DNA from: Akkermansiaceae bacterium
Lineage (GTDB): Bacteria > Verrucomicrobiota > Verrucomicrobiia > Verrucomicrobiales > Akkermansiaceae
Reading direction: 5' to 3'
Assembly: GCA_903906515.1 (NCBI GenBank)
Contig: CAIVKO010000065.1
Location: forward strand, 62,001 to 126,000
Length of the DNA stretch: 64,000 nucleotides
In this document: piece by piece, positions 21,161 through 64,000 of the stretch
Layout: the number at the start of each line of letters is the position of its first letter
Numbering within the stretch: position 1 is the stretch's first letter
The notes under the pieces: generated by a model
What the model saw: the letters and a program-made list of their open reading frames with translations, nothing else
Database searches by the model: none
What the model was told of the DNA's origin: nothing
Program-made: the position numbers and the translations under genes

Positions 21161-22438
21161 ATGGAAATTCCCTGCAATGCATTTAACCGCTGGTGGATCG
21201 CCGCCGCCGGAACTGTCCTCCAGCTCTGCCTCGGGACCGTTTACGCGTGGAGTTATTTCCAGAAGCCGCTGGTGGATGCTTATGGTTGGAGTAACACGCA
21301 GGTGGCGTGGGTGTTCAGTCTGGCCATCTGTTGCCTCGGTCTTGCCGCCGCTTGGGGCGGGATGAATCTGGAAAAGATCGGCCCGCGGCGTCTTGCCATC
21401 GCGGGCGGGTTGCTTTTCGGCGGTGGATATCTGTTGGCTGCGCTGGCATTGCAGATGAAATCGCTGGCGTTGTTATACCTCGGTTACGGACTTTGCGGCG
21501 GGTGCGGCCTCGGCCTCGGATATGTCACCCCCGTGGCAACCGCCGCAAAGTGGTTCCCTGACAAAAAGGGGCTGGTCACCGGTATGGTCATCATGGGCTT
21601 TGGTTTCGGTGCGCTGCTCATGAGCAAGATACTCATGCCGGCGCTCATGGCCGCGACCGGAGGAAATTTACCTGCGGTTTTCGCCTGCCTCGGCGCGGGT
21701 TTGGGATTGATCACGGTGGTTTGCGGATGGGTCCTGCGCAATCCTCCCGCAGGACTCCTCTCGTCCGAATCCCGGGAAACGGACCCTGGTATCGCGGGCC
21801 CCAGCGTGCGGAATTGCCTGCTATCCGGGCGCTTTGCCATTATCTGGGGCGTTTTTTTCTGCAATATCGTCGCAGGCATATCGATCATCGGATTTCAATC
21901 TCCACTTCTCCAGGATTTATTGAAACGGAGCAGTCCCGAACTAATGGTCCTGTCCCTGGCCGCCGCCGGATCCACTTTGATCGCGGTGAGTTCGCTGTTC
22001 AATGGCATCGGCCGGTTTTTCTGGGGTGGAGTCTCGGACAGGATAGGTCGCGTGAGGACATTCCGCATCATCCTCGCTACCCAGATCATTGCATTTCTGA
22101 TTCTGGCGAATGTGACGCAACCTTGGATTTTCGTCATCCTTGTTTGTTATGTGCTGCTCTGTTATGGCGGCGGCTTCGGGACGATGCCCTCGCTCGTGCT
22201 CGACGTGTTCGGTAGTCGCTTGATGCCGGTGATCTACGGTACCGTGCTCACGGCATGGTCCGCGGGAGGGATTGTCGGACCCCAAATGGTCGCCGTGATG
22301 AAGGATTTCTATGGGGAAAACGCCTCCAGGTATTCATTTTTGTTAGGAGCTTCCTTGCTCACCTTGGGGTTCATCCTGTCCCTGATTCTCTCAGATAGGC
22401 CGTTTGCACGGACTTCTTCCATCCGGGACGATCGCTAA
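21161..22438 (+). CDS. MFS transporter, OFA (oxalate/formate antiporter) family
   Basis: 425 aa with twelve predicted membrane helices. The N-terminal stretch NRWWIAAAGTVLQLCLGTVY with AWSYFQKPL is characteristic of the OFA subgroup of the major facilitator superfamily, as is GLGLGYVTPVATAAKWFPDK between helices 4 and 5. OFA members move oxalate, formate or other monocarboxylates. It is the first gene of a run with three folate one-carbon genes (69 nt to the next), including formate-THF ligase, so formate or a related one-carbon acid is an attractive substrate. That substrate is inferred from context only. Confidence 0.82.
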   Translation: MEIPCNAFNRWWIAAAGTVLQLCLGTVYAWSYFQKPLVDAYGWSNTQVAWVFSLAICCLGLAAAWGGMNLEKIGPRRLAIAGGLLFGGGYLLAALALQMKSLALLYLGYGLCGGCGLGLGYVTPVATAAKWFPDKKGLVTGMVIMGFGFGALLMSKILMPALMAATGGNLPAVFACLGAGLGLITVVCGWVLRNPPAGLLSSESRETDPGIAGPSVRNCLLSGRFAIIWGVFFCNIVAGISIIGFQSPLLQDLLKRSSPELMVLSLAAAGSTLIAVSSLFNGIGRFFWGGVSDRIGRVRTFRIILATQIIAFLILANVTQPWIFVILVCYVLLCYGGGFGTMPSLVLDVFGSRLMPVIYGTVLTAWSAGGIVGPQMVAVMKDFYGENASRYSFLLGASLLTLGFILSLILSDRPFARTSSIRDDR

Positions 22439-22507
22439 GTACCCAATCACCAAAAAAACATCCCAGAACACAAGACCGCACCGCGCCATCCCATGTAGGG
22501 TGCCCCT

Positions 22508-24145
22508 GTGAACCCTGAGATTTCAGTTAGCAATGATCCGTGCCAGCCCCCGCAGCGGGAAAACGCGGTGGCCGCCTCGTTCCGCAATCTCCTGAATGGT
22601 GGGAAATTCGTTTATGGCGCGGAATTGGTCACCACCCGCGGCATCCCGGAGGCAAACGGTCCGCCGAAATTGGTAGAACTCGGCGAAGCCCTCGCTGCGG
22701 ACTCGCGTATCTCCTGGGTCTCCATCACTGACAATCCCGGCGGAAATCCGATGCTCCCGGCGGACTGGCTCGCCAATATCCTCAAGCCGACCGGTAAACA
22801 ACTCGTCATCCACCTCACCTGTAAGGATCTCAATCGCAACGGTCTGGAATCCGCCGCATGGCGCTACTCTGCGGAAGGATTTCACAACATCCTCGTGCTC
22901 ACCGGCGACTATCCGGCTGCTGCGGGCTTCCAGGGCCAGGCGCTCCCGGTGTTCGATCTGGATTCGGTAGGCTTGATCACGATGCTCAAGGCCATGAACG
23001 ATGGGATGGAGGTGTCCAGGCCCAATGGGAAATTAGACCGTCTGCCAAAAACCGATTTTTTTATCGGCGCCGCGGTCTCCCCCTTCAAAAGGCAGGAGCG
23101 CGAGCTGATGCCGCAGTATTTCAAACTTGCCCGCAAGATCCGGAGCGGCGCGGAATGGGTCATCCCGCAACTCGGCTACGACATACGGAAGTTTCATGAA
23201 ATCAGCCTGTTTATGGACTGGGCTGGTCTATCCTCTCCCATCGTCGGCAATGTTTATGTCCTCAACAAGACAGTGGCCGGATTGTTCAATAAAAACAGGA
23301 TCCCCGGTTGCGTCGTCAGTGACGAGTTGCTGGCAATGGCGGAAAAATACGCCGCCGGCCCGGACAAGGGTCGCGCGTTTTTCCTCGAACTCGCGGCCAA
23401 ACAACTCGCGGCCTTCAAGGGCATGGGATTTGCAGCGGGTTACCTCGGTGGCGTGCATACCGCCGATGCTTTTGCCAAAATCATCGACATGGCGGAAGGT
23501 TTCGGCGCGGATGATTGGAAGGAGTTCGCCAAAGAAATCCAGTTTCCAAAAACCGATGAGTTCTATTTGTTTGAAAAGGATGAGGCCACCGGTCTGGGTG
23601 ATCGCGAGCGTCTCAATGAGTCCTATGTCAAATCACTGAAAACCCCGCCCAGGGCCGGTGATGTGACATTGAGCTATCAACTCACCCGCATGATCCACTC
23701 GCTGGCATTCACGCCGGGAAAAATGATGTTTCCCTCGTTGCAGAAATTCTACGGACGGCTCGAATCCGGTGGCAGCCGCCGCACGCTCGGTGCCCTCCAC
23801 AGGATCGAACACGCGTCCAAATCCCTGCTCTACGGCTGCCGTGACTGCGGGGATTGCGCTCTGCCGCATACCGGATACCTCTGCCCCCGCGCCTCATGCT
23901 CCAAAACCCAGCGCAACGGCCCATGCGGCGGATCCTTCGACGGGCGCTGCGAGCTGGATGACAAGGAATGCCTCTGGGCACGGGCTTATGACCGCCTGAA
24001 GTATTATCATGAATCCGCGGAAATCTTCGATGGTCCGCCGGTGGTCGCTAATGCCGCACTCGTCGGGACATCCGCTTGGGCTAACAACTTCCTCGGCCGT
24101 GACCACCAGCACACCACGCCTCCGGACAAACCCTCTCAATCCTGA
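22508..24145 (+). CDS. metF: Methylenetetrahydrofolate reductase with fused MetV-like cysteine-rich C-terminal domain
   Basis: 545 aa. Residues about 30-330 form the MTHFR barrel (KFVYGAELVTTRG; ISWVSITDNPGGNPM; HNILVLTGDYP), reducing methylene-THF to methyl-THF. Residues about 440-490 are cysteine-rich (CRDCGDCALPHTGYLCPRA, then RNGPCGGSFDGRC), matching the C-terminal MTHFR domain that in acetogens is the separate subunit MetV. The protein is therefore a MetF-MetV fusion, longer than canonical MetF (about 300 aa). The next gene, a methyl-THF methyltransferase, starts 26 nt downstream. Electron donor cannot be read from sequence; the acetogen-type partner domain suggests something other than simple NADH use. 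Confidence 0.85.
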   Translation: MNPEISVSNDPCQPPQRENAVAASFRNLLNGGKFVYGAELVTTRGIPEANGPPKLVELGEALAADSRISWVSITDNPGGNPMLPADWLANILKPTGKQLVIHLTCKDLNRNGLESAAWRYSAEGFHNILVLTGDYPAAAGFQGQALPVFDLDSVGLITMLKAMNDGMEVSRPNGKLDRLPKTDFFIGAAVSPFKRQERELMPQYFKLARKIRSGAEWVIPQLGYDIRKFHEISLFMDWAGLSSPIVGNVYVLNKTVAGLFNKNRIPGCVVSDELLAMAEKYAAGPDKGRAFFLELAAKQLAAFKGMGFAAGYLGGVHTADAFAKIIDMAEGFGADDWKEFAKEIQFPKTDEFYLFEKDEATGLGDRERLNESYVKSLKTPPRAGDVTLSYQLTRMIHSLAFTPGKMMFPSLQKFYGRLESGGSRRTLGALHRIEHASKSLLYGCRDCGDCALPHTGYLCPRASCSKTQRNGPCGGSFDGRCELDDKECLWARAYDRLKYYHESAEIFDGPPVVANAALVGTSAWANNFLGRDHQHTTPPDKPSQS

Positions 24146-24171
24146 TCCATTTTTACTAACATACCACGACC

Positions 24172-25038
24172 ATGCCCATACCCAACCTGACCATCATCGG
24201 CGAATCCATCAATGATTCGGTGCCGTCCACCCACAAATTCTTCGAAGCAGGTGATATCACCGGCCTCAAGGAGCTCGCTATCGCCCAGGATGTCGGCGGG
24301 GCTGGTTATATCGATGTGAATGTCGGCCCGCGCTCCGGTGAATTCCTTGCGGAAATGGTTCGTAATGTCCAAAGCGTCACCATCAAGCCGCTATCGATCG
24401 ACACACCGGATCCCGCCATGGCGGAAATCGGTCTCAAGGCCTACGACCGCGACCGTGCCGGTGGTGTGATGCCCATCCTTAACTCGATTTCCCCGCTGCG
24501 CATGGAGATGTTCGATCTCTACAAGATCATGCCGTTCATGCCGATCCTGCTGGCTTCGGAACGTGTGGAAAATGGAGTTGGAAAACCCAACCACGCTGCG
24601 GAAGAAGTTTATCAGACGGCCCTGCTGATGGTCAGAGAAGCCGCTAAGCACGGTATTCCTGTGGACCAGTGCATCATCGACCCCGCGATCTCACCGATCG
24701 GCGCGGATACCGAGGGGCGCTTCCATTGCCTGATGGGAGCCATCCGCCTGATCCATGGAGATCCGGAGCTCAAGGGTGTGCACATGTCCGTGGGATTGAG
24801 CAATTTCAGCGTCATGATCCCGCCGAAGCGCGCCGATGGTTCGCCCTCCAAAGGTCCGCTCGAAAGCGCGTTCCTCACCATGGCCGTGCCGATGGGCATG
24901 GACTTTGTCATCGGCTCCGTGAAAAGGAAATATGAAATTCTCACACCGGATCATCCGGCGATGCAGTGTCTGAATGATTGCATGACGCTCGAAGGCTTCG
25001 ACGTCATCATGCGCGTCCAGGAATATTATGCCGACTGA
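24172..25038 (+). CDS. Methyltetrahydrofolate methyltransferase (MeTr/AcsE-like, pterin-binding family)
   Basis: 288 aa single pterin-binding TIM barrel. Motifs match methyl-THF:corrinoid methyltransferases: GESIND, GGAGYIDVNVGPRSGE, IKPLSIDTPDP, ILNSISPLR, IIDPAISPIGADTEG and VHMSVGLSNFSVMIPP. The acetogen enzyme AcsE (262 aa) passes the methyl group of methyl-THF to the corrinoid iron-sulfur protein. Methionine synthase carries a homologous domain but is much larger. The gene sits between metFV and fhs (26 and 33 nt), supporting a methyl-THF role. No corrinoid protein or acetyl-CoA synthase gene is in the window, so the methyl acceptor is unknown. Confidence 0.8.
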   Translation: MPIPNLTIIGESINDSVPSTHKFFEAGDITGLKELAIAQDVGGAGYIDVNVGPRSGEFLAEMVRNVQSVTIKPLSIDTPDPAMAEIGLKAYDRDRAGGVMPILNSISPLRMEMFDLYKIMPFMPILLASERVENGVGKPNHAAEEVYQTALLMVREAAKHGIPVDQCIIDPAISPIGADTEGRFHCLMGAIRLIHGDPELKGVHMSVGLSNFSVMIPPKRADGSPSKGPLESAFLTMAVPMGMDFVIGSVKRKYEILTPDHPAMQCLNDCMTLEGFDVIMRVQEYYAD

Positions 25039-25071
25039 TAGAAGCCATCTTCTCACTTCAATTCCATTCTC

Positions 25072-26757
25072 ATGAAAAAATCTCCGGTTCCGTCCGATAT
25101 CGACATCGCCCGCGAGGCACGCATGCTGCCGATCGAAAAAGTCGCCGAGCGTCTTGATATCCCTACGGATGATCTCGAACACTATGGCAAATACAAGGCC
25201 AAGGTGTCGCTCGACTTCCTCAACAGTCGCAGCCAGGCCAAGCCCGGCAAGTTGGTGTTGGTGACCGCCATCTCGCCCACTCCCGCGGGTGAGGGAAAAA
25301 CCACCACCACTATCGGTCTGGGAGACGGGCTCAACCGCATCGGCAAGCGCACCACCGTCTGCCTGCGCGAGCCATCGCTGGGACCCTGCTTCGGCATGAA
25401 AGGCGGAGCCGCTGGCGGTGGATATGCCCAGGTGGTTCCGATGGAGGACATCAACCTGCATTTTACCGGAGATTTTCACGCTCTAACATCCGCGCACAAC
25501 CTGCTGGCGGCGATGGTGGACAACCACCTCAACCACGGCAATGCCCTTGGCATCGATCCCTCGCGCATCGTCTGGAAACGGGTGATGGACATGAATGACC
25601 GCTCGCTGCGTGAAATCGTCGTCGGCCTCGGCGGCCCGGCCAACGGCGTGTGCCATGAATCCGGATTTGACATCACTGTGGCTTCCGAAGTCATGGCGAT
25701 CTTCTGTCTGTCGCAATCGCTGGCGGAACTTCGCGAGCGCCTCGGTAAAATCATTATCGGCTACACCCGCGACAAACAACCTGTCACCGCCGCGCAACTC
25801 AAGGCCAACGGTGCCATGACCGTGCTGCTCCGGGATGCCATCAAACCCAACCTTGTCCAGACCCTCGAAAACAATCCGGCCTTTGTTCACGGAGGTCCCT
25901 TTGCTAACATCGCGCACGGCTGCAACAGCGTCATCGCCACCAAGCTCTCGATGAGCCTCAGCGATTTCACCGTCACCGAAGCCGGCTTCGGTGCCGACCT
26001 GGGCGCGGAGAAATTCCTCGATATCAAGTGCCGCCAGGCTGGCATCCGCCCGGATGTGGTGGTGCTGGTCGCTACCGTCCGAGCCCTGAAAATGCACGGT
26101 GGTGTTGATAAAAAAGACCTGCTTCCTCCCAACCCGGATGCCGTGCTCCGCGGTCTCGCCAATCTGGAGAAACATTTGTCGAACATTTCCGGATTCGGGC
26201 TTCCCGTGGTCGTCGCGATCAACCACTTCACCTCGGATGCGGAAGAGGAACTCAGCATCATCGAGCAACGCTGCGCCGCTCTTGGCGTGAAAGCCGTGCG
26301 CGCCACCCATTGGGCACACGGAGGTGCCGGAACAGAGGAGCTCGCCCGTGTCGTTGCTGAACTCGCGGAGAACGCCCCCAACACCTTCGATTTCCTCTAC
26401 CCGCCGGAAATGCCGCTCTGGGAAAAGGTGCGCACCATCGCCCAGAAAATCTATGGTGCCAACGATATCACCGCGAACAATCAGGTGCGGGCGAAATTCA
26501 ACGATCTCGAAAAAGCCGGTTTCGGCAACTTCACGGTCTGCCTCGCCAAGACCCAGTATTCGTTCTCCACGGACCCCGCCCTCTGCGGTCGTCCCACTGA
26601 TTTTGAAGTGGTCATTCGCGATGTCAAAATCTCCGCGGGTGCCGGCTTTATCGTCGTTCTAACCGGCGATATCATGACCATGCCGGGCCTGCCTAAAGTA
26701 CCGTCTGCGGAGGTCATCGATATTGACGAAAATGGACGGATCGTCGGATTGTTCTAA
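25072..26757 (+). CDS. fhs: Formate-tetrahydrofolate ligase
   Basis: 561 aa, full length for the family (about 555-560). It makes 10-formyl-THF from formate, ATP and THF. The signature near residue 65 is [20 protein letters not shown] (P-loop), and [20 protein letters not shown] follows. Further conserved blocks are [11 protein letters not shown] and [11 protein letters not shown]. It is the last gene of the OFA-metFV-MeTr-fhs run and is followed by a probable terminator. Together the genes supply reactions at both ends of the folate methyl branch; folD, needed between them, is elsewhere. Confidence 0.95.
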
Positions 26758-26800
26758 ACAGGTTGGAGAAAAATCCAAGGAGTCACTTTTGTTTGAAGGT

Positions 26801-26832
26801 TCCGGGTAGAATGACCCGGAGACTGGTTTTTT
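26801..26832 (+). terminator. Probable Rho-independent terminator after fhs
   Basis: A perfect 7-bp stem (TCCGGGT / ACCCGGA) with a 6-nt loop at 26801-26820 is followed six bases later by a run of six T (26827-26832). The gap between stem and T run makes it weaker than a textbook terminator. Confidence 0.45.
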
Positions 26833-26978: not shown

Positions 26979-27000
26979 CATATCGCATATTTGAGATATG
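26979..27000. promoter_or_regulatory. Palindromic operator overlapping the ArsR start codon
   Basis: CATATC and GATATG, perfect 6-bp arms 10 bp apart, form a 22-bp dyad whose right arm ends on the ATG (26998-27000). Dyads with ATAT-type arms are typical ArsR-family operators, and position implies autorepression of this gene together with the disulfide reductase. Confidence 0.55.
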
Positions 27001-27312
27001 AAATCCATGCCTGTTGCGAAACTTGAAGCATTTGAGAAATCGGCGGTGAGCATGGCGGCCTTTGCCAAGGCTTTGGCGCATCCTGCGCGGATCTGTATTC
27101 TGCGGTATTTGGCGGGTAAGGGAGAGGTGGCGTGCATGGACATCGTGGCGGCTTTACCACTGTCCCAGCCAGCTTGTTCCCGCCACATCAACGAGCTGCG
27201 CAAGGCCGGCCTCTTAAAATCACGCGAGCGAGGGAGTCATGTGTTTTTCCAAATCGACGAATCCGCGCTCAGCCGCTTTTGTCAAGCGATGAATCAAACC
27301 CTGCATCCCTGA
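26998..27312 (+). CDS. ArsR-family repressor, possibly thiol/persulfide-sensing
   Basis: 104 aa winged helix: FAKALAHPARICILRYLAG, recognition helix SQPACSRHINELRKAGLL, wing RERGSHVFFQI. Cysteines lie at about 33, 46, 60 and 95; C46 (in the helix after KGEVA) and C95 (last helix) are placed roughly like the dithiol pair of SqrR/BigR persulfide sensors, which is suggestive only. No metal-binding CxC is present. A dyad overlaps its start, and the next gene, 32 nt on, is a CoA-disulfide reductase with rhodanese domain, which supports sulfur or redox sensing. ATG at 27007 is an alternative start. Confidence 0.85.
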   Translation: MKSMPVAKLEAFEKSAVSMAAFAKALAHPARICILRYLAGKGEVACMDIVAALPLSQPACSRHINELRKAGLLKSRERGSHVFFQIDESALSRFCQAMNQTLHP

Positions 27313-27344
27313 AAATCTCAAATTCCAAAATCCACATTTCCATC

Positions 27345-28976
27345 ATGAAACCAAACATTGAAACCCTAGTCATCGTCGGCGGAGTGGCCGGTGGTGCGTC
27401 TGCCGCAGCCCGTGCCCGCCGTCATTCGGAATCCACGCACATCATCCTCATCGAGCGCGGGCCGGATGTGTCATTCGCCAACTGCGGACTTCCCTATCAC
27501 ATTGGCGGTGAGATTCCGGACCGTGCAGAGCTTGCCATCCAGACGCCGGCCAGCTTGCGTGCCATCCTCAATCTTGATGTCCGCACCTTGACGGAGACCA
27601 TCGCCATTGACCGTGGGCAGCGAGAGGTTCGGGTTCGTTCACTCACGGATAGTTCCGAGTCGGTGATCGCATACGACAAGCTCATTTTAGCGCCTGGGGC
27701 CAGCCCGTTGCGTCCGCCATTGCCGGGGATCGACAGTCCGCTCATCCACACGTTGCGCAATCTACAGGATATGGACCGCATCAAGGAGGCTGCGGCGAAG
27801 GTAGATCACGTGGCCATCATCGGCGCGGGTTTCATCGGTCTGGAAATGGCCGAGCAGCTTCATGCCATCGGCAAGAAAGTCAGCGTCATCGAGCTTCAGC
27901 CACAAGTGTTGCCACAGATGGATGCGGAGATGGTGCGTCCGCTGGAAAAAGCGCTGGGAGACAAGGGCGTGGAATTGATCCTAGGTGATGGTATCGATGG
28001 ATTTGAAACCATGTCTAACGGAATTTCAGCCAAACTCAAATCCGGAAGATCGCTGGAAACCGGTTTGGTGATCCTATCGATCGGCGTGCGTCCGGAAAGC
28101 GGTCTGGCCAAGGATGCGGGTCTTGAGCTCGGCCCGCGCGGCCATATCAAGGTCGATTCCTATCAGCTGACATCTGATCCGGACATTTATGCGGTCGGAG
28201 ATGTTTGTGAAACGGCGGAGCCGGTTCTCGGCAAGCGTGCAGCGATTCCACTTGGTGGCCCTGCGAACCGTCAGGGTCGCACAGCAGCCGATCATATTTT
28301 CACCGGACAGAAAGCGTTGCCCTATCCCGGCAGCATCGGCACCGCCATCGTGCGCGTGTTCGATCATGCGGCTGGAATCACCGGATATTCGGAATCCCGT
28401 CTCAAGGCGGAGGGTGTTTCCTATCAGGCTGTCACCGTCAACGGATCGTCCCACGCCAGTTATTTTCCTGGAGCGGAAACCATTACTTTCAAATTGTTGT
28501 GGAATCCGGAAACCGGACACGTGCTCGGCGCCCAGGCCAGCGGCAAGGATGGGGTGGACAAGCGCCTTGATGTCATTGCCACGGCACTGCGGGGACGTCT
28601 GACCATCGATGATCTGGCGCATCTGGAACTGGCCTATGCGCCACCGTTCGGCAATGCCAAGGATGTCATCAACGTCGCAGGATTCGCCGCCGGCAATATC
28701 CGCGACGGGTTGTTAGTTCCGGTGGAGGAACTCGCGGATGCGGGGGACCAGATCATCGACGTCCGCCCCGCCGCCGTTGCCGCGAAACGTCCGGTGCCGG
28801 GTGCTAAAAACATCCCGCTGGGTGAACTCCGCGGGCGACTGGGAGAAATCGACGCCTCCAAGCCGGTCTTCACCATCTGCCAGATGGGGAAAACCAGTTA
28901 TTTCGCCGCTCGCATTCTGGCCAATCACGGATTCGACGCCCGCAGCATCCTCGGCGGTGCCCATCATCAGATGTGA
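27345..28976 (+). CDS. cdr: CoA-disulfide reductase fused to C-terminal rhodanese domain
   Basis: 543 aa from ATG at 27345; longer in-frame readings run into the ArsR gene. FAD domain: VIVGGVAGGASAAARARR. The catalytic cysteine of CoA-disulfide reductases is in SFANCGLPYHIGG (about residue 46). NAD(P)H domain: AIIGAGFIGLEMAE. A second FAD block is DIYAVGDV. The C-terminal rhodanese domain (about 455-543) has the active loop CQMGKTS (about 511). Such fusions reduce CoA disulfide or CoA/polysulfide persulfides. Regulation by the upstream ArsR is inferred from the operator dyad and 32-nt spacing. Confidence 0.9.
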   Translation: MKPNIETLVIVGGVAGGASAAARARRHSESTHIILIERGPDVSFANCGLPYHIGGEIPDRAELAIQTPASLRAILNLDVRTLTETIAIDRGQREVRVRSLTDSSESVIAYDKLILAPGASPLRPPLPGIDSPLIHTLRNLQDMDRIKEAAAKVDHVAIIGAGFIGLEMAEQLHAIGKKVSVIELQPQVLPQMDAEMVRPLEKALGDKGVELILGDGIDGFETMSNGISAKLKSGRSLETGLVILSIGVRPESGLAKDAGLELGPRGHIKVDSYQLTSDPDIYAVGDVCETAEPVLGKRAAIPLGGPANRQGRTAADHIFTGQKALPYPGSIGTAIVRVFDHAAGITGYSESRLKAEGVSYQAVTVNGSSHASYFPGAETITFKLLWNPETGHVLGAQASGKDGVDKRLDVIATALRGRLTIDDLAHLELAYAPPFGNAKDVINVAGFAAGNIRDGLLVPVEELADAGDQIIDVRPAAVAAKRPVPGAKNIPLGELRGRLGEIDASKPVFTICQMGKTSYFAARILANHGFDARSILGGAHHQM

Positions 28977-61855: not shown

Positions 61856-64000
61856 TGCGCCGGAAATCAAACAGGATCGCGCTGCTGGCCATGGTGGTTT
61901 TCATGGTCGTGGCTCCGGCACTGCACGCGCAGAAGCGGCCGTTCATCGGCTACGTCTATCCCGCCGGTGGCCAACAGGGCACGACGTTCCAAGTCAGGCT
62001 CGGCGGACAGGACCTCGACTCGGTCGATACGGTGCTCGTCACCGGTCCGGGCGTCACCGCCCGTGTCGTTGATTATTACCGGCGCATGAACAATCAGGAG
62101 GTACAGTTGCTGAACGAACAATTGGAAGCGCTGAAGAAAAAACCATCATCCGCAGATCCGACGATGGCCCCAGCGATGGCCCCAGCGATGGCAGCGGAAA
62201 ACCCGGCGATGATGTCGGAGATGTCCGCGGTGAAATCCCCGGAGACTGACAAGCAGGGTGTCGCGAAGAGCCTTGCTGCGGAAATCGAGCAGCGGACCCG
62301 AGAAGCGGTGCAGACCCCCGCGTGTGCGTCGATCGCCAGCATTGTCCTGGTCGAAGTCACTCTTGCCGCCGACGCTCCGCCGGGAAGGAGGGAACTGCGC
62401 CTCGCCACGCCACGCGGCGTTTCAAATCCGTTGTCGTTCATGGTCGGTCAGGTTCCGGAGTCCAGTCGCAAGCCGATGATTTCCGCGACGCTCCAGGTGT
62501 TAGGGAAGGAAGCATCCGCTCTACGCAAGCGTCCGCCCGAGGAGGCGGAGCGGAGCATCACACTGCCTTGCACGGTCAACGGCCAGGTCGCATCCGGCGA
62601 GGTCAATCGCTACCGTTTCCAAGCGAAGAAGGGCCAACGTCTGGTGATTTCTACTCTGGCGCGGCAGTTGATCCCGTATGTCGCCGATGCTGTTCCCGGT
62701 TGGTTCCAACCCGTGCTCGCACTTTACGATGCTAACGGAAAAGAGCAGGCATACGTCGACGACTACCAGTTCAAACCCGATCCGGTGATCCTCTTCGAAG
62801 TGCCAAGAGACGGCGAGTATGTCTGCGCCATCCGCGATGCCATCTATCGCGGACGAGAGGATTTCGTGTATCGAATCACCATTGGCGAGATGCCTTTCAT
62901 CACTGGCATTTTTCCCTTGGGCGGGCCCGTAGGTGCGGCGCGGCTATCTAAAATCCCAGGTTGGGGACTCTCCGGCGCGAAGCTGGACATGCCGCCCGCC
63001 AATGCCGGCCCCGGTGTCGTTGAAATTTCCGCGAACAAAACAGGCCTCGTCTCGAATCGTGTGCCGTTCGAGCTGGATACGCTTTCGGAAGCGCTCGAAA
63101 AAGAACCTAACAATAAAACGGCGGACGCCCAGCAGGTCACGCTACCCGTCATCATCAACGGACGCATTGAAAAGCCGGACGACTGGGATGTTTTCTGTTT
63201 CACCGGCAAGGCGAATGATCCGGTGGTCATTGAAGTGCGGGCCCGCAGGCTCGATTCTCCGCTGGATTCGGTAATCAAGCTCACCGACGCAACCGGAAAG
63301 GTGATTGCTTTCAATGACGATTGCGAGGATCTAACCGCAGGGACGAACACCCATCACGCGGATTCCTATCTGATGACGCAATTGCCTGCGGACGGCACTT
63401 ATTTCGTCCATATCGGCGACACCGCCCGCCACTCGGGCGAGGAATACAGCTACCGCCTGCGGATTAGCGCGCCGCGCCCGGATTTCGAGCTGCGCGTTGT
63501 GCCTTCCAGCGCCAGCTTCGCGATCAAGACCGGAGCGACCGTCAGCGTTTACGCCGTGCGCAAGGATGGATTCACCGGCCCCATCAAACTCACCCTGAAA
63601 AATCCGCCGCCGGAATTCACCGCAGGTCCGGTGACCATCCCCGAAAACCAACCGCTAGCGAAGTTCTACTTCAAGGGTAGTGCGACACCGACAACTACGC
63701 CCGTCGAGCTTTCCATCGTGGGCAGCGCCATGCTCGGTACGCAGGAGACCACCCGTGATGCCGTGCCGGCCGAAGATCGGATGCAGGCATTCTTGTGGCG
63801 GCATCTCGTGCCCGCAAACGATTTGAAAGTCCTCGTTTACGATTCAAAAATCCAACCGCAGCCCAAACACCCCCTTCCATTCAATGCACCACCGTTCGTG
63901 GGCCCGCCTGCGCCCGGCACTAAACCACCGATCCGTCCGGCAGATGTCGCCGCGCCGGCCAACGGCACACCTGCAGTTCCCAAGCCGAAGTTCACAGCAC
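61855..64000 (+). CDS. Secreted PPC-domain protein (3' partial)
   Basis: At least 715 residues, open to the last base, so the gene is cut by the window. The ATG at 61855 overlaps the DUF1501 stop (TGATG), indicating coupling. A signal peptide (LLAMVVFMVVAPALHAQ) precedes a methionine/alanine/proline-rich segment with direct repeats (PAMAPAM near 62163-62190) and at least two PPC-type beta domains, for example RYRFQAKKGQRLVISTLA and DDWDVFCFTGKANDPVVIEV. PPC domains are common in secreted proteins of Verrucomicrobia and Planctomycetes. Function of the whole set is unknown. Confidence 0.85.
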   Translation, partial: MRRKSNRIALLAMVVFMVVAPALHAQKRPFIGYVYPAGGQQGTTFQVRLGGQDLDSVDTVLVTGPGVTARVVDYYRRMNNQEVQLLNEQLEALKKKPSSADPTMAPAMAPAMAAENPAMMSEMSAVKSPETDKQGVAKSLAAEIEQRTREAVQTPACASIASIVLVEVTLAADAPPGRRELRLATPRGVSNPLSFMVGQVPESSRKPMISATLQVLGKEASALRKRPPEEAERSITLPCTVNGQVASGEVNRYRFQAKKGQRLVISTLARQLIPYVADAVPGWFQPVLALYDANGKEQAYVDDYQFKPDPVILFEVPRDGEYVCAIRDAIYRGREDFVYRITIGEMPFITGIFPLGGPVGAARLSKIPGWGLSGAKLDMPPANAGPGVVEISANKTGLVSNRVPFELDTLSEALEKEPNNKTADAQQVTLPVIINGRIEKPDDWDVFCFTGKANDPVVIEVRARRLDSPLDSVIKLTDATGKVIAFNDDCEDLTAGTNTHHADSYLMTQLPADGTYFVHIGDTARHSGEEYSYRLRISAPRPDFELRVVPSSASFAIKTGATVSVYAVRKDGFTGPIKLTLKNPPPEFTAGPVTIPENQPLAKFYFKGSATPTTTPVELSIVGSAMLGTQETTRDAVPAEDRMQAFLWRHLVPANDLKVLVYDSKIQPQPKHPLPFNAPPFVGPPAPGTKPPIRPADVAAPANGTPAVPKPKFTA

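Follow-up and report, generated by a model that had tools for sequence, protein, structure and literature searches.

In this study, we analysed a stretch of 64,000 nucleotides (hereafter the window; positions 62,001 to 126,000 of contig C65) from the genome of an Akkermansiaceae bacterium (G000), which comprises 4.48 Mb in 265 contigs and is 96% complete and 3.5% contaminated; contigs, loci and genomes are designated here by C, L and G numbers. The window carries a four-gene operon encoding an OFA-type transporter, a fused MetF-MetV-type methylenetetrahydrofolate reductase (MetFV), a methyl-tetrahydrofolate:corrinoid methyltransferase (MeTr) and a formate-tetrahydrofolate ligase (FTHFS). We propose, with a probability of roughly 0.6, that this operon is the folate arm, running in the oxidative direction, of a corrinoid methyl-transfer hub whose other parts are spread over the genome. 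In such a hub, zinc methyltransferases of the UroD superfamily would move the methyl group of a methylated substrate to the Co(I) corrinoid of an MtgC-like protein (C208), and RACo together with a DUF1638 protein (C48) would re-reduce the corrinoid upon its oxidation. MeTr would pass the methyl group from the corrinoid to tetrahydrofolate (THF), MetFV would turn methyl-THF into methylene-THF by means of its flavin and its MetV cysteine domain, FolD (C108) would lead on to formyl-THF, and FTHFS in reverse would yield formate and ATP. The OFA-type carrier may export the formate, and a homocysteine methyltransferase whose gene adjoins that of the corrinoid protein would draw methyl groups from the hub into methionine as a side branch.

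The initial annotation of this DNA had noted that the operon comes without a corrinoid partner and that the window lacks folD. Both statements hold for the window, where tblastn searches, each made with one query protein (two in the case of UroD), found no corrinoid protein, RACo, FolD, UroD, MTTB or DUF1638, but neither holds for the genome. The genome search that the annotation had recommended matched the families of the corrinoid protein, RACo, FolD and UroD on contigs other than that of the window. C208 encodes a 209-amino-acid MtgC-like corrinoid protein with both B12-binding domains, and its gene is divergent from an adjoining homocysteine S-methyltransferase gene. C48 encodes a RACo corrinoid activase (234 bits) with DUF1638 directly upstream (tblastn, 33% identity, E 6e-37), and FolD is encoded on C108. 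Because the partner is encoded on another contig of the same genome, its apparent absence is an artefact of the window. MtgB (PF06253) had no match in this genome, so that an MtgB-type methyl donor was dropped as a candidate; among the 21 genomes compared below, five have one. CoFeSP/CdhD (PF03599), the only CODH/ACS subunit covered by the search, likewise had no match in the 96% complete genome. On the other hand, there are 14 matches to UroD (PF01208), comprising 13 full-length frames and one partial, and a regular expression found the HxC zinc-type motif in 10 of the 13 full-length proteins, candidate members of the UroD-superfamily corrinoid methyltransferases.

The distribution of these parts across genomes agrees with a common system. 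When 145 genomes were searched for relatives of the MeTr, 12 matched and were counted as 11, the weak match in G071 being treated as absent because it lies in a 943-amino-acid frame, presumably MetH. The 12 genomes and nine others, which were picked for quality and not at random, made up a set of 21. UroD proteins, RACo and the stand-alone corrinoid protein (47–100% identity) were found in exactly the same 12 of these genomes. The remaining nine had no UroD or RACo match, and the corrinoid query aligned there at 31–35% identity within frames of 913–1211 amino acids, presumably MetH. UroD thus accompanied RACo in 12 of 12 genomes against 0 of 9 (Fisher p 3.4e-6), and RACo was present in all 11 genomes with a MeTr relative against 1 of the 10 without one (p 3.4e-5), although the genomes are related and the nine negatives were not randomly drawn, so that both values overstate independence.

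The four genes are collinear on the plus strand at 21161–26757, with intergenic gaps of 69, 26 and 33 bases. The earlier description of one operon with small gaps was borne out by the Pfam matches, by these distances and by the arrangement conserved in relatives. The best 80 of 174 MeTr-related loci were kept, and by their record titles they derive from Verrucomicrobia, Planctomycetota, Aminicenantes, Acidobacteria, Bacillota, Spirochaetales, Calditrichota, Kiritimatiellae and others; all of these records carry a MAG label except L156, an assembly of 'isolate AM_0936'. Conservation was counted in the 52 GTDB loci where the sequence extends 2.5 kb or more to either side of the MeTr relative, taking neighbours within 3 kb on the same strand. 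MetFV was present in 28, FTHFS in 31 and both in 26 of these loci; the pair accompanied MeTr in 19 of 21 loci at 70% identity or more, in 4 of 11 at 62–70% and in 3 of 20 below 62%. Neighbours that are not conserved together, which the initial annotation had named as the finding that would overturn it, were accordingly not what we observed.

Among the best 80 loci, BLAST against our own reference set, by which distant members may be missed, detected a corrinoid gene of the C208 type in 15, RACo in 4 and UroD in 16. The order corrinoid-MetFV-MeTr-FTHFS on one strand was found in L157, L160, L163, L165, L168, L175 and L197; in L163, MetFV and MeTr stand about 1 kb apart, and the corrinoid match of L160 belongs to an 800-amino-acid open frame. 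The MeTr of L133 shares 88% identity with that of the window, and this locus shows the order corrinoid-MeTr-UroD without MetFV or FTHFS. In four scanned loci without MetFV (L182, L173, L167 and L172), a divergent methylenetetrahydrofolate reductase (MTHFR) protein (25.9–42.1 bits, cut-off 24) follows MeTr or FTHFS. The same protein was recognised by eye in L171, L176, L184, L185 and L193, and no such neighbour was called in L178, L195, L199, L206, L209, L211 and L212. The usual company of MeTr is therefore an MTHFR-type enzyme and, variably, FTHFS, a corrinoid protein, a homocysteine methyltransferase or UroD.

Table 1. Features of the operon and its 3' flank in the window
Feature	Position	Strand	Basis
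OFA-type MFS monocarboxylate transporter (NCBIfam SfMCT, L-lactate MFS transporter)	21161–22438	+	Pfam MFS_1, NCBIfam
Fused MetF-MetV-type methylenetetrahydrofolate reductase (MetFV)	22508–24145	+	MTHFR + DUF5981; GTG start
MeTr, methyl-THF:corrinoid methyltransferase, MtgD-like by context, 288 amino acids	24172–25038	+	Pterin_bind, NCBIfam, PDB/fold matches
Formate-tetrahydrofolate ligase (FTHFS)	25072–26757	+	PF01268, 895.9 bits; NCBIfam PRK13505 above cut-off
Terminator-like hairpin with T-run 3' of the FTHFS gene	26800–26821	+	Pattern match only

Ten terminator-like sites were found against a shuffle mean of 5.7, and the hairpin is weak evidence when taken alone. The operon is closely followed, on its own strand, by an ArsR-type regulator and then a FAD-dependent disulfide reductase with a rhodanese-like C-terminus (26998–28976; both recognised by eye).

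The third gene had been called MeTr-like at the outset, and the NCBIfam, PDB and fold-search matches confirm this. Its NCBIfam matches are models of methyl-THF:corrinoid methyltransferases, which it hits below their cut-offs (106 bits against 259, and 55.4 against 370). Residues D77, N104, D170 and N211 are invariant in 32 alignment rows, and by motif position we take them to correspond to the catalytic D75, N96, D160 and N199 of the Moorella MeTr; N199 is also named in the title of PDB entry 2ogy. The protein combines the pterin-binding TIM barrel of the family with what is presumably its catalytic Asp/Asn set. The PDB sequence matches are the 4o0q group, MeTr and MetH. The 4o0q group is labelled dihydropteroate synthase (DHPS) in the sequence-search record but is described as the methyltransferase component of O-demethylation in the fold-search record. 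With the AlphaFold model (mean pLDDT 94.4), the best fold matches by E-value were MeTr 2yck and the O-demethylase component 4o1e (top E 1.4e-14), while MtgA came at ranks 38–39 (E about 1.5e-7) and DHPS chains only from rank 40 (E 1.9e-7). As the Pterin_bind family is common to MeTr and DHPS, the gene might instead encode a DHPS or another folate-biosynthesis enzyme, and the operon would then serve anabolic folate housekeeping. However, no DHPS family matched in NCBIfam at E 0.01, the fold search ranked MeTr and MetH folate domains first, and separate DHPS-like genes, judged by eye, lie on C228 and C213 of the same genome. The grouping with dihydropteroate synthases that the initial annotation had foreseen as a counter-result did not occur, and we ruled this explanation out as having practically no chance of being correct.

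The same annotation had viewed the enzyme as AcsE-like and the operon within an acetogenic frame. The MetV-type domain, FTHFS and the weak match of MeTr to the ACS methyltransferase model (55 bits) would fit the methyl branch of a Wood-Ljungdahl pathway with an AcsE-type MeTr. This frame does not suit the operon because the genome has no match to the CoFeSP family, the CODH/ACS component searched, and the cut-off of the AcsE model (NCBIfam NF040758) was not reached with 55.4 bits against 370. For lack of a match to CdhD, the one subunit covered, acetogenesis was rejected as very improbable. In addition, a second MeTr subfamily with 32–44% identity to P0003 was observed in L042, L043, L044, L045 and L155, where its gene neighbours one for an amidohydrolase (confirmed with Pfam in L042 and L044 and assigned by similarity in L043, L045 and L155). 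L042 also has UroD, DUF1638, a homocysteine methyltransferase and RACo, and L155 has RACo.

MetFV consists of an MTHFR domain followed by DUF5981 (PF12225; 85.7 bits against a cut-off of 23), which is the composition of MetVF-type reductases with their cysteine-rich MetV domain. Cysteines 444, 447, 450, 459, 464, 473, 481 and 488 are all invariant in a 20-row alignment. Two [4Fe-4S] clusters are predicted for the MetV of Clostridium ljungdahlii (PMC8760232), and the eight cysteines of MetFV would suit two such clusters. The MTHFR and MetV modules are common to the acetogen reductases and to MetFV, whereas the latter is a single fused polypeptide with putative clusters. In its AlphaFold model, residues 443–449 and 451–480 have a pLDDT below 50, which is too uncertain for placing a metal site, and the N-terminal ~20 residues are also of low confidence. 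In L177 (8364–9866), the domain order is apparently reversed, as a DUF5981-like cysteine domain precedes an MTHFR-like part (judged by eye from the alignment).

The transporter passes the NCBIfam SfMCT L-lactate model (335.6 against a curated cut-off of 320) and stays below the cut-off of the oxalate/formate antiporter model (167.6 against 335). Its homologs, with 60–64% identity, follow FTHFS in 13 of the 80 loci of relatives. The protein is a proposed formate or lactate carrier.

Two functions had been suggested beforehand, namely formate assimilation and demethylation of methylated substrates in reverse. Demethylation is the best-supported, though predicted, function, and assimilation is retained at a lower rank within the main competing explanation, a split B12-dependent methionine synthase fed by formate. 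There, the carrier would import formate, FTHFS, FolD and MetFV would reduce it to methyl-THF, and MeTr, the corrinoid protein and the homocysteine methyltransferase would make methionine, with RACo and DUF1638 keeping the system active. The neighbourhoods give this explanation some force. In four of seven genomes inspected, the corrinoid gene adjoins a homocysteine methyltransferase gene in divergent orientation. Homocysteine methyltransferases with 61–64% identity to their C208 counterpart lie 3' of MeTr in L169, L180, L192, L200, L201 and L202 and 3' of FTHFS in L162; more distant ones (40–42%) lie downstream of the corrinoid-MetFV-MeTr-FTHFS genes in L157 and L160, and 17 of the 80 loci carry a homocysteine methyltransferase-MTHFR fusion. 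Moreover, the highest TM-scores of the MeTr model are those to MetH folate domains (0.80–0.81 for that of Thermus, against 0.57–0.72 to MeTr and MtgA), and the activation domain of the genome's own MetH is interrupted by a transposase-like insert. On the other hand, the genome still encodes this MetH, with the Hcy domain on a separate open reading frame, as well as a homocysteine methyltransferase-MTHFR fusion. Methionine synthesis alone would also leave unexplained why, among the 21 genomes, UroD occurs only where RACo and the corrinoid protein do, and L133 shows MeTr beside UroD with no homocysteine methyltransferase found in its 19-kb contig. We regard the split synthase as the strongest alternative but rather improbable; it could also exist side by side with the UroD-fed hub, much as the two functions do in Ruegeria.

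Several other points, together with these TM-scores and the relatedness of the genomes, weigh against the oxidative hub. Its parts lie on separate contigs in the genome of the window, and HxC is absent from 3 of the 13 full-length UroD proteins. G018 lacks a relative of the operon's MeTr even though it has RACo, the corrinoid protein and 16 UroD matches. A corrinoid gene of this type was detected in no more than 15 of the 80 loci, and in some cases it sits several kb off or on the opposite strand. The folate enzymes of the operon are reversible, so we infer the direction. Oxidation of methyl-THF with NAD(P)+ is uphill, and the electron acceptor of MetFV was neither identified nor sought.

Regarding MetH itself, the C-terminal open reading frame of 1408 amino acids (L238, 4005–8231, on C35 of G000) contains two in-frame segments of Y1/IS200-like transposase. 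The first follows residue ~626 and separates the B12 domain from the activation domain, and the second (about 990–1236) interrupts the activation domain. The NHVH motif is also present in the longest open reading frames of four relatives' MetH loci (L115, L116, L119 and L110, from G036, G006, G057 and G004), and the aligned segments of G036 and G057 show an insert at the first site.

Known systems offer close parallels. Mausz et al. (PMC12478193) reported that MtgC and MtgD of Ruegeria pomeroyi serve both glycine betaine demethylation and methionine synthesis, that metF2, located downstream of mtgD, is proposed to oxidise methyl-H4F, and that RamA and DUF1638 proteins become more abundant on N-osmolytes. 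Price et al. (PMC5764234) showed that Phaeobacter inhibens has a split methionine synthase, accompanied by DUF4445 and DUF1638 proteins, which is a precedent for methionine synthesis by such a route. Our genome shares with both a stand-alone MtgC-like corrinoid protein, a likewise stand-alone MeTr with an adjoining MetF-type gene, a stand-alone homocysteine methyltransferase, a RamA/RACo-like activase and DUF1638. Unlike MtgBCDE, it has UroD-superfamily proteins in place of MtgB, its MetF is fused to a MetV-type cysteine domain, and FTHFS and an OFA-type carrier belong to the operon. Since MtgB was tested and had no match, we read the operon as working like MtgBCDE, probably in the oxidative direction, without being a member of it.

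UroD proteins also occur in O-demethylases and mlp clusters (PMC10418091), and our reading of a UroD-fed hub follows from this occurrence and from the missing MtgB. With the corrinoid O-demethylases of acetogens and Desulfitobacterium, which consist of MT1, a corrinoid protein, MT2 and an activating enzyme, the genome shares the corrinoid protein, the RACo-type activase and a MeTr matching 4o1e and 4o0q; it differs in that the parts are scattered over contigs, that there is no CoFeSP family match and that 14 UroD matches are possible donors. Kountz and Balskus (PMC10418091) described type 1 mlp clusters, in which Mlp2 and Mlp3 are encoded with a corrinoid protein and an activase, solely in genera of obligate anaerobes, and named Clostridium sporogenes and H. 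thermocellum genomes without a THF methyltransferase. In contrast, our genome has a THF methyltransferase and no single cluster, as UroD, the corrinoid protein and RACo are encoded on separate contigs, and it does not belong to this type.

The surroundings of the UroD genes were inspected for possible substrates. In the own genome, a rhamnose mutarotase gene (RhaM) lies 3' of a UroD gene (C156), a RhaT transporter gene lies between two UroD genes (C9), and other UroD genes adjoin GH38, GH29, ROK and sugar transporter genes. Thirteen of 20 hand-picked neighbours belong to sugar-linked families (GH38 twice, GH29, ROK, SSF twice, three sugar/MFS transporters, RhaM, SMP-30 lactonase, RraA-like and enolase superfamily). 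A Pfam control on relatives, covering the 105 of 149 UroD neighbours and 139 of 160 control genes within the size limits and the top 25 families only, showed no clear excess of sugar genes. GFO_IDH_MocA matched 5 of 105 neighbours against 3 of 139 controls, and the controls had xylose-isomerase-like, SSF, GH43 and rhamnosidase matches; RhaT was found in 3 of 105 neighbours and was not among the top 25 control families. The idea of a general sugar context was dropped on this result, which also counts against our reading.

RhaM or RhaT occurred in 8 of 51 UroD regions (674 kb) against 0 of 26 control regions (358 kb), and every match was at most 1.2 kb from the UroD gene on the same strand. Because this test was post hoc, made after the neighbours were known (one-sided Fisher p 0.03), we take the adjacency as suggestive, and it too tempers the case. 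On the UroD tree, which has long branches and 11 open forks, the rhamnose label needs five changes, with at least four gains or losses forced by starred branches; these changes should not be read as the number of origins. The neighbours hint that O-methylated deoxysugars, methyl-rhamnose for example, may be substrates of at least some UroD enzymes. In L267 (6788–7192) and L279 (7789–8193), the signal at the start of the RhaM-like proteins beside UroD (ASCATAPP) resembles that of a lipoprotein, and the mutarotase may be exported there.

These observations led us to a tentative and rather doubtful extension, in which Verrucomicrobiota and Planctomycetota without acetogenesis demethylate O-methyl deoxysugars, for example methyl-rhamnose of algal or cyanobacterial glycans. 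Many zinc UroD-family methyltransferases would feed one corrinoid protein, and the MetFV-MeTr-FTHFS module would turn the methyl groups into formate and ATP, or they would go to methionine. If true, sugars would be O-demethylated by a corrinoid route, of which the titles and abstract openings of the matches listed in our literature search gave no description. The proposed hub itself, if real, would explain an acetogen-like methyl-folate module in organisms without detectable CoFeSP as serving a shared corrinoid hub, which could let both phyla use the methyl groups of methylated organic matter. The many UroD-superfamily proteins of these genomes would gain a testable role, with methylated deoxysugars as a possible first substrate class, and a hub known from marine roseobacters would extend to other phyla and to another donor family.

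Pools of methyl-corrinoid and methyl-folate may, in addition, be relevant to mercury methylation, as three relatives have hgcA-like genes. PF03599 has no match in the genome of the window, and the genes suggest mercury methylation in those relatives. The N(V/I)NVWCAAGKG motif of their 343-amino-acid proteins (L245 in G036:C171, L246 in G055:C329 and L247 in G057:C48) is what we take to be that of HgcA, and in G036 and G057 a ferredoxin gene, presumably of the HgcB type, adjoins the HgcA-like gene.

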